Shown: positions 18,065 to 55,359 of the stretch, one piece after another
How the letters are laid out: each line of letters opens with the position of its first letter
Position numbering within the stretch: position 1 is the first letter of the stretch
Translations under genes and position numbers: made by a program
The notes under the pieces: generated by a model
What the model saw: the letters and a program-made list of their open reading frames with translations, nothing else
What the model was told of the DNA's origin: nothing
The model's database searches: none
Source of the DNA: a virus
Reading direction: 5' to 3' (one strand)
DNA length: 55,359 nucleotides
Virus record (IMG/VR): IMGVR_UViG_3300009177_000047
Location: 1 to 55,359 of that record

Positions 18065-18140
18065 GCGCCTATAGCTCAATTGGAAGAGCGACCGGTTTCT
18101 ACCCGGTAGGTTGGGAGTTCGAGCCTCTCTAGGCGTGCCA
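18065..18140 (+). tRNA. tRNA-Arg (anticodon UCU)
   Basis: The 76-nt sequence folds as a full cloverleaf. The acceptor is GCGCCTA/TAGGCGT (first pair G-T), the D arm GCTC/GAGC, the anticodon stem ACCGG/CCGGT with loop TTTCTAC, and the T arm GGGAG/CTCTC with loop TTCGAGC. CCA is encoded. The anticodon TCT reads AGA, a codon generally rare in high-GC bacteria. Confidence 0.95.
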
Positions 18141-18148
18141 TTTCCTGT

Positions 18149-18224
18149 GATCCCGTAGCTCAACAGGAAGAGCGCGCGTTTCCTAAACACGAGGTTGCTG
18201 GTTCGAGCCCAGCCGGGGTTGCCA
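18149..18224 (+). tRNA. tRNA-Arg (anticodon CCU)
   Basis: The 76-nt cloverleaf has acceptor GATCCCG/CGGGGTT (two wobble pairs), D arm GCTC/GAGC, anticodon loop TTCCTAA and T arm GCTGG/CCAGC. CCA is encoded. The anticodon stem CGCGT/ACACG has one C-A mismatch at its centre. The anticodon CCT reads AGG. It lies 8 nt after the tRNA-Arg(UCU), so the two are probably co-transcribed. Confidence 0.9.
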
Positions 18225-53955: not shown

Positions 53956-54378
53956 TTGCTCGCAGTCGTGATTATAGCCGCCCTTTTGGCCCTCGTTCCG
54001 CGCATGGTGTGGAAGGTGATCGGTTACACCCTACTGGGTGCTTTCATCATCGCATGGATAGCCGAGCCGCCCACAGCGGCCGAGCGCTATGGGCATGTGG
54101 TGCTCCATAAGGTGGATGATCGCCAGATCGCGACACACCTGAACATGGACACGAACGGGACTCACACGGTCACGGTGACGAACAACAGCGATCTGCTGAT
54201 CCAAAATATTCTCATGAATTGCACGGATGGTGGACGGGATTATCAAATCCGTCTGAACGTCATGGTCTATCCGCATTCTTCCGAGTCCGACTCGGTCTAC
54301 GACTATCGTGGTGGTGAAACAGCGCAATGCGTCATCGCTGACTGGGACAATTACCGAGCGAGTCCGAAGGCGAACTAG
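53956..54378 (+). CDS. membrane-anchored extracytoplasmic protein
   Basis: TTG 53956 is chosen because GGGAGG lies 6 nt upstream; the product has 140 residues. Residues 1-36 hold two hydrophobic stretches (LAVVIIAALLALVP, VIGYTLLGAFIIAWI), anchoring the rest outside the cytoplasm. The body has Asn/Asp/Ser-rich strands (THTVTVTNNSDLLIQNILMN, CTDGGRDYQIRL), perhaps an Ig-like fold. It could be a superinfection-exclusion or envelope factor expressed early; no family is recognised. A hairpin overlaps its stop. Confidence 0.65.
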   Translation: MLAVVIIAALLALVPRMVWKVIGYTLLGAFIIAWIAEPPTAAERYGHVVLHKVDDRQIATHLNMDTNGTHTVTVTNNSDLLIQNILMNCTDGGRDYQIRLNVMVYPHSSESDSVYDYRGGETAQCVIADWDNYRASPKAN

Positions 54379-54391
54379 CGTCCGCCTTCGG
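54364..54391 (+). terminator. hairpin overlapping the 54378 stop
   Basis: ccgaaggcg (54364-54372) and cgccttcgg (54383-54391) form a perfect 9-bp stem with a 10-nt loop containing the TAG stop. It is followed immediately by a second, larger inverted repeat. Confidence 0.6.
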
Positions 54392-54441
54392 GGATCAGTG
54401 AGTCTTTGTGCTCTCTGCGTTCGCAGTCGTCTCACTGATCC
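54392..54441. terminator. large inverted repeat with inner hairpin
   Basis: ggatcagtgag (54392-54402) and ctcactgatcc (54431-54441) are perfect 11-bp arms around a 28-nt loop that itself contains CTGCG-TT-CGCAG. The geometry (11-bp arms, 28-nt loop, inner CTGCG/CGCAG palindrome) repeats that at 5941-5990. Confidence 0.6.
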
Positions 54442-54479
54442 ATATTTCAGAGAGCCGATGAGAAGAATGAACGTTATAT

Positions 54480-55070
54480 CCTAGATTTTATGTTGCCTTT
54501 CTCTCCCCTGCACAGCCCCAAAGGGGCGGCAAAAGAGAGAATTGTCGGCTACATCCTGAGTTTCGTAGCTGCTCAACCCGTGGTTTCCGACCTCTCGGAA
54601 GCTGGCGGTTCCCCGATACCAGCTATGGCCACGCAATCTCGATCTGACACACCGGAGTGTCGGGCTAGGGGCCTGTCGAAGGATGTGGCAAACAGCCTTT
54701 TGCATCCCGCCGACGCCTTGCGCCCTCGGTTGTCACTAATGATCTGAACGGTTTTGTATCCCACATGCCCGCCGGTTGAGAAACGGTCATGCGCGGGGAG
54801 GCGCCAAATTGCTCAAGGCACACTTCCCCTCTTTTCATAATTGCGATTTCGTGAACCAATGGGTCCACCGAGCTTGCCCACCCAGTGACGTTCGCAAACA
54901 TGGAGTTGCACCATGCCGGACATCAGTGTTGGTCTCGTTTCGGCGCGCTGCCGACGAACCGGTCTCTATAACCGGTCGGTCTTGATGGGTGGGGAGAACC
55001 CGAGTAGATGGTCCCCTGCGCAATATGTGTTTCGCCCCGGTAAGGGCGAGCTAGTGATCGGACTGTAGAA
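54480..55070 (+). ncRNA. candidate large structured RNA region without credible ORF
   Basis: About 590 nt contain no ORF with a ribosome site and plausible protein, but many local inverted repeats. They include gcccc-aaa-ggggc (54515-54527), flanked by crossing pairs ttgcc/ggcaa (54493-54497 with 54528-54532) and ttctctc/gagagaa (54499-54505 with 54535-54541) that would form a pseudoknot. Others are gctac/gtagc (54548-54569), agctgg/ccagct (54600-54624), acac-cgga-gtgt (54649-54660), ggatg/catcc (54681-54707), cccgc/gcggg (54768-54797), accggt/accggt (54958-54976) and cgccc/gggcg (55033-55048). The strand is assumed from the flanking genes. It is not a recognised family. Confidence 0.35.
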
Positions 55071-55079
55071 TCGAGTCGA

Positions 55080-55359
55080 ATGATGAGTCAAAATGAATCA
55101 TGGAGGAAGGTTCTAGTTAACCATAGGCCGCCGGATACTGAACCGGGAGCCGAGCACCGGTATTTCAAAGACTACATGGGCAAATTTCGCCTTAGAGACA
55201 TGTATATGGCGTCATATGCTCTAGTGGCCCGGACCAATTTTCGACACGATCCGCCCTACCGCTACGCCTTCCTGAAAAATCGAGCGGGCTACAGTCCCGA
55301 AGCCATTTTGGAGTATGGGCCGAACTGTCCCGAGATGGGCGTTCTGATGCTCATCGTGC
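55080..55359 (+). CDS. partial ORF running off the window end
   Basis: ATG 55080 (ATG ATG AGT...) opens at least 93 residues to the window edge: MMSQNESWRKVLVNHRPPDT, later YFKDYMGKFRLRDMYMASYA. There is no strong ribosome site. A GTTAACCA motif (55116-55123), elsewhere intergenic, lies inside the proposed coding start, so a start at ATG 55176 is also possible. No family is recognised from this fragment. Confidence 0.45.
   Translation, partial: MMSQNESWRKVLVNHRPPDTEPGAEHRYFKDYMGKFRLRDMYMASYALVARTNFRHDPPYRYAFLKNRAGYSPEAILEYGPNCPEMGVLMLIV

Follow-up and report, generated by a model that had tools for sequence, protein, structure and literature searches.

The locus and its features

The stretch of DNA analyzed here (the window) is a virus record 55 kb in length. 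Its B-family DNA polymerase was closest to that of Sinorhizobium phage Phosso (56%), followed by that of Agrobacterium phage Atu_ph07 (52%), and because these are phages of 470 to 490 kb, the window is, on sequence grounds, a jumbo-phage fragment related to Atu_ph07 and Phosso. By inference, its host is most likely alphaproteobacterial. A gap between genes, which encodes the RNA described here, adjoins a pair of spanin genes, genes resembling those for DnaJ and peptide deformylase (the latter so labeled from its position and its similarity to what is annotated in Phosso), and a minus-strand Clp ATPase. A plus-strand ORF at 55080-55359 is cut off; it starts within the promoter region of the RNA and reads away from it, and a similar ORF of unknown family was identified in another jumbo phage (L004, 6099-6488). 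Elsewhere in the window, 2 tandem tRNA-Arg genes (anticodons TCT and CCT) were identified at 18065-18224. The features of the RNA locus are as follows.

55062-55091, minus strand: sigma-70-type promoter (TTGACT at 55091-55086, 18-nt spacer, TACAGT at 55067-55062)
54364-55056, minus strand: structured RNA of about 690 nt, with full-length nhmmer and CM matches in phages and bacteria (folding z = -4.4)
54747-54833, minus strand: middle domain (A5 alignment), with a GAGG..CCUC stem containing an inner UGUC/GACA hairpin, a long GCAUG..CAUGC stem, a small hairpin, and then the invariant single strand AACCGU
54746-54749, minus strand: 5' strand of a long-range helix, GUUN, directly after AACC
54585-54733, minus strand: core domain (R1), with an ACC..GGU closing helix, a GGAUG..CAUCC helix, a GCUGG..CCAGC hairpin, and a CCG..CGG hairpin
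54608-54611, minus strand: 3' strand of the long-range helix, NRAC, in the apical loop GGGNRACC
54550-54560, minus strand: direct repeat copy 1, CUCAGG followed by AUGUA
54498-54541, minus strand: long 3' stem-loop (UUCUCUC...GAGAGAA), the nested hairpin of the sequence-only reading; the stem is kept in other copies and its length varies
54475-54485, minus strand: direct repeat copy 2, UCUAGG followed by AUAUA
54392-54441, minus strand: 3' hairpin enclosing a GCGAAC/GCGAG-type motif, near the 3' end of most copies (from sequence and fold of the 3' regions)
54364-54391, minus strand: GC-rich stem-loop closing the RNA, with the same position in most copies, where the 3' end probably lies

Conservation, strand, and limits of the RNA

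The sequence-only reading had seen no credible gene between 54480 and 55070, and our scoring agrees: with a codon model trained on the window, ORFs overlapping this region all scored negative or near zero (-2 to -23), whereas real genes scored about +10 to +550. A coding region was rejected, the ORFs overlapping the RNA region having no coding character. To compare the locus among phages, we used jumbo-phage contigs gathered with a Clp protein scan. Positions 54357-55100 were 82.7% identical (blastn) to the syntenic place in L004, above the 72% to 77% identity of the coding genes flanking the RNA there, and a distant contig whose Clp is only 52% identical (L034) retained the RNA region at the same position.

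The RNA is encoded on the minus strand, from about 55056 down to 54364 (~690 nt); the limits first proposed, 54480-55070 (~590 nt), were off, the start lying near 55056 and the other end beyond 54480, at about 54364. We inferred the 5' end from the promoter, the sole promoter-like site found in 54250-55200, and the 3' end from the last conserved hairpin. The promoter end of most phage copies conserves TTTGAC-N-GATTCTAT in the minus-strand sense, according to the alignments. No long U-tract was found at the final stem-loop (54364-54391), nor a consensus terminator with a T-run. Within the originally proposed limits, the folding energy gave z = -1.2 on the plus strand and z = -2.9 on the minus strand. 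With the corrected limits, 54364-55056, these values became z = -2.0 and z = -4.4, respectively (0 of 20 shuffles for the minus strand), so that folding energy no lower than that of shuffled sequence, which had been named as a possible refutation, does not apply to the correct strand. In the A4 alignment, G-U pairs outnumbered A-C mispairs (35 vs 15), with about 20 of the 35 coming from 1 conserved U-G pair, and in L079 the long-range helix is preserved by U-G and G-U pairs, which would be mismatches on the opposite strand. An RNA read from the plus strand was rejected on its weaker fold, the lack of a promoter, and A-C in place of G-U at several pairs.

Covariation and the long-range helix

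The sequence-only reading had proposed compensatory change among relatives as a check on the fold, and such change was abundant. For the middle domain, an alignment of 22 sequences (A5) made by MAFFT with no structure supplied had both sides changed in 20 of 23 pairs, with 113 such cells, and 94.1% of its cells were paired, compared with 26% to 44% in slid controls. The core domain, with 23 distinct sequences in A4, had both-sides changes in 23 of 28 pairs (123 such cells vs 33 in shuffles) and 93.1% of cells paired (30% to 47% in slid controls). The A4 alignment was fitted to the model and so leans towards structure; the slid and shuffle controls nonetheless remained far below it. We also applied a home-made covariation test similar to R-scape, in which substitutions were redistributed on the tree as the null. 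At E<=1, canonical pairs made up 7 of 8, 10 of 11, and 10 of 11 of the top pairs in 3 alignments, in helices along the RNA, and 3 canonical pairs reached E<=0.05 in 1 run. There is hardly any room for doubt, in our judgment, that this is a real structured RNA family.

A 4-bp helix, GUUN (or GUCN):NRAC, joins the end of the middle domain to the apical loop of the core. Read by hand, it was canonical in 88 of 88 cells across 22 copies, all of which have the complete pairing, and its fourth and last pair occurred as UA, CG, GC, AU, and GU, that is, as all 4 Watson-Crick types plus GU. The pair 54746-54611 was among the top covarying pairs under the phylogeny-preserving null. We defined the family by AACCGUUN and GGGNRACC with GUUN:NRAC pairing together with an R1 match, all of which the window meets. 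We did not retain a reading of GGGNRACC as a GNRA tetraloop, since the NRAC bases within it are paired to GUUN upstream. The earlier suggestion of an RNA with a pseudoknot therefore holds in a different place from the one named: a pseudoknot-type long-range helix is present (54749-54746 with 54611-54608), but the crossing helices originally drawn at 54493-54541 (UUGCC/GGCAA) are unsupported, being confined to the window and its closest relative, L004, and absent from L070, L074, and the other copies. GUUN:NRAC may be an intramolecular pseudoknot or a bridge between molecules, which sequence cannot discriminate.

An internal direct repeat with concerted variation

The RNA carries 2 related motifs, CUCAGG (54560-54555 in the window) and UCUAGG (54485-54480), spaced 71 to 126 nt apart across the family. 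Within most RNAs, the 5 to 8 bases after CUCAGG and after UCUAGG were the same or nearly so, while differing between RNAs; the segments occurring twice include GUGUGAAC in L127, GUACGAGA in L125, and UUGAUGA in L083. Agreement over 8 bases was 5.3 within RNAs and 2.6 between them (0 of 20,000 shuffles), with 2 offsets set by hand in this test. The top covarying columns 54554/54479 were rejected as a base pair and belong to the direct repeat. The RNA and its locus yielded no consistently placed third sequence complementary to the repeat. Either both segments recognize 1 partner in trans, or a process at the DNA level keeps them equal.

Copies in phages and bacteria

We identified 13 phage copies, with 1 to 4 per genome. 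A 3-sequence profile recovered a full-length copy in L044 as well as further copies elsewhere in the same genomes. Counted with R1, a covariance model of the core domain, 2 copies were present in a 415-kb contig, 4 in a 578-kb contig, 2 in a 561-kb contig, and 2 in a 607-kb contig; the window itself scored 138.8 bits, its sequence being within the seed alignment. Further, a 240-kb contig had 2 RNA copies, and a 79-kb contig had 1 that was near-identical to one of these. No homolog was detectable with R1 in Phosso or Atu_ph07, and in Atu_ph07 the syntenic gap is occupied by a tRNA-Ser and lacks every motif of the family. Annotated phage and plasmid collections gave no match in blastn searches with single copies, which are less sensitive than the model. 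Loci that had come up in pattern scans with only 1 short motif (L054-L061, L064-L068, L089, L091, L093, L096, L102, L105, and L107) were set aside as mostly chance.

A locus with spanin, DnaJ, and Clp neighbors (locus A) was common to several jumbo phages, and another (locus B) lay beside a small HAD-like gene in 2 phages, with other shared neighbors in the remaining phages. Because these 2 loci with shared neighbors are kept across several jumbo phages, the RNA is selected for. In a rough tree, copies from the same genome tended to pair (L079/L083, L094/L095, L073/L085, and L044/L082), although separate loci share neighbors between phages; this pattern suggests concerted evolution or repeated duplication of same-genome copies. 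When the neighbors of the phage copies were compared in sequence with the bacterial recombinases, no recombinase was recognized, and scans of 13 phage loci turned up no tRNA. In the 607-kb phage contig, a gene for a class I tRNA synthetase (E/Q type, Pfam tRNA-synt_1c) lies close to 1 RNA copy (L139, 8067-8954).

About 9 full-length bacterial copies were found, in Alphaproteobacteria (Azospirillum, Microvirga, and their kin). A pattern scan of a genome collection placed homologs in Alphaproteobacteria only, namely Azospirillum sp. TSH64, A. brasilense, Microvirga sp. VF16, and M. lupini. Model searches identified copies in 3 of 82 genomes of the order containing Azospirillum sp. TSH64, in 6 of 199 genomes of the family containing Microvirga sp. 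VF16, and in 1 of 385 genomes of a class-wide sample, where the search scored only a few candidates per genome; bacterial copies are thus sporadic. A site-specific recombinase adjoined most bacterial copies: a tyrosine integrase was nearby in 5 of 10 bacterial loci and a Tn3-type serine resolvase in 5 of 10, with both in 2 of them, and a tRNA-Leu stood beside the integrase at 1 locus. Within a few kilobases of at least 3 bacterial copies, we identified the defense genes BrxC (BREX), HamA/HamB (Hachiman), and a candidate system, PDC-M68; the loci L124, L125, and L132 combine the RNA, a recombinase, and defense genes (BrxC, PDC-M68, or HamA/HamB). The bacterial loci look like integrated mobile elements with defense genes.

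Comparison with known RNAs

Among large ornate RNAs, GOLLD and ROOL are often encoded near tRNAs, GOLLD also inside tRNA clusters; ROOL assembles as a homo-octameric cage and GOLLD as a homo-oligomeric one. In a cmscan of the window at gathering thresholds, no Rfam family was found except the 2 tRNAs, and the region and 19 family loci, compared with Rfam down to E = 5, gave only chance matches to microRNA and small-RNA models. Since there is no Rfam match, the RNA is not a detectable GOLLD, ROOL, or OLE by sequence or structure. No Rfam model of introns or known ribozymes matched the window, the region, or the 19 loci either. The initial proposal of a large structured phage noncoding RNA that matches no known type is borne out by the compensated fold and by the covariance search of Rfam without a match. 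Its suggestion of tRNA proximity is not, as this is no feature of the family: the tRNA-Arg genes of the window are 36 kb off, and the other phage loci scanned have no tRNA.

GOLLD is large and highly structured, has no reading frame, is encoded by phages and prophages, has no known function, and shows covarying pseudoknot-type contacts (PMC12286853). The new RNA is likewise large, structured, noncoding, and present in phages, with bacterial copies near integrases; in contrast to GOLLD, it lacks an Rfam match, lies away from tRNAs, occurs in several copies per genome, and is found in jumbo phages and alphaproteobacterial integrative elements. ROOL is ornate, pseudoknotted, phage- and prophage-borne, and without a known protein partner, and both GOLLD and ROOL form RNA-only cages of unknown purpose (PMC12286853). 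The new RNA resembles ROOL in a pseudoknotted ornate fold backed by covariation (the long-range helix in 88 of 88 cells) but has neither an Rfam match nor a tRNA island. OLE, a large structured bacterial RNA that forms a homodimer (PMC12286853), is of comparable kind, whereas the new RNA has no Rfam match and a phage and mobile-element setting. In the open-access literature, with subscription journals and preprints outside the scope, we found no paper on such a jumbo-phage RNA. We take it to be a new, previously undescribed RNA family of jumbo phages and of the mobile DNA of soil bacteria; that the family is real is near certain.

Possible functions

To our knowledge, very few bacterial or phage RNAs of such size and intricacy have been described, and what the phage-borne ones do is unknown. 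The limits of the present RNA are clear, it has a promoter and a core backed by covariation, about 22 diverged copies are available, and its homologs lie in the chromosomes of Azospirillum and Microvirga strains that may be tractable in the laboratory; for these reasons, the role of large ornate RNAs in phages and mobile elements becomes open to ordinary genetics.

The interpretation we consider most likely, at about even odds and with the function inferred, is that of an ornate free-standing RNA working like GOLLD and ROOL but unrelated to them, with an unknown cargo or partner. Host RNA polymerase would transcribe it independently of other genes, either during infection or from an integrated element, and it would fold into a compact multidomain particle. 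GUUN:NRAC might then lock the fold as an intramolecular pseudoknot or bridge 2 molecules, as some pseudoknot-like contacts of GOLLD and ROOL do, and the RNA might act in trans, either as a scaffold or cage or by offering a host factor a platform, from which the phage or mobile element would profit. Its size, its phage and mobile-element setting, and its pseudoknot resemble those of GOLLD and ROOL (PMC12286853). Against this mode stand the lack of expression data, the absence of evidence for oligomers, cages, or a partner, the distance from tRNAs, and the final hairpin without a U-tract.

Other readings account for part of the evidence. Conserved single-stranded motifs (AACCGUU, AAAGGCA, CUCAGG, and UCUAGG) could make the RNA a decoy that sequesters a host factor during infection, with RNA polymerase or a regulatory or ribosomal protein as conceivable targets to be diverted. 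Unpaired invariant motifs do lie between the covarying helices, and some genomes carry several copies, but a simple repeated binding motif like that of CsrB is lacking, conservation of the fold equals that of the motifs, and the partner is unknown; we consider a decoy unlikely while keeping it in view. A ribozyme, or a self-splicing or processing element with CUCAGG-x and UCUAGG-x as processing or ligation sites, would fit the compact pseudoknotted fold and the 2 x segments, which are identical in concert (0 of 20,000 shuffles). Rfam ribozyme and intron families nevertheless do not match, the RNA sits between genes rather than within one, and neither a reverse transcriptase nor a homing gene was recognized next to it, which leaves this explanation highly improbable. 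High conservation at the DNA level, and inverted repeats that can fold as DNA too, would also be expected of a conserved DNA element (an origin, packaging, or recombination site), and the region might be an unrecognized coding one. We discount the absence of an RNA almost entirely: G-U pairs and a strand-specific promoter speak against a DNA element, and indels and compensatory changes are incompatible with coding, as is the lack of coding character in the ORFs.

The bacterial setting beside recombinases and defense genes could signal a quite different role from that of a GOLLD- or ROOL-like RNA. The RNA might serve recombination, regulation, defense, or anti-defense of integrative elements, with jumbo phages keeping copies against host systems. 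The tyrosine integrases and serine resolvases (each close in 5 of 10 bacterial loci), the BrxC, HamA/HamB, and PDC-M68 genes near 3 copies, and the concerted direct repeat within the RNA all favor such a role, yet the phage copies have no recognized recombinase alongside, the neighboring defense systems vary by locus as those of islands in general would, and the loci yielded no sequence that could partner the repeat. We regard this role as possible, if rather unlikely. More speculatively, and with considerable doubt on our part, the RNA may represent a new phage and mobile-element class in which the 2 repeat segments recognize the same element-specific partner in trans, making it an adaptor with sequence specificity and not just a scaffold, with several co-evolving copies per jumbo-phage genome. 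The recombinase and defense neighborhood and the concerted internal repeat offer concrete, testable hypotheses.

At the bacterial loci themselves, L127 (5356-14664) carries 2 identical RNA copies in inverted orientation, separated by about 8.5 kb and flanked by mirrored sets of genes that include the resolvase; this pair is either a large inverted duplication or an assembly artifact. A second RNA copy in Microvirga sp. VF16 (L125, 351-614), partial and decayed, was identified about 9 kb from the full one.
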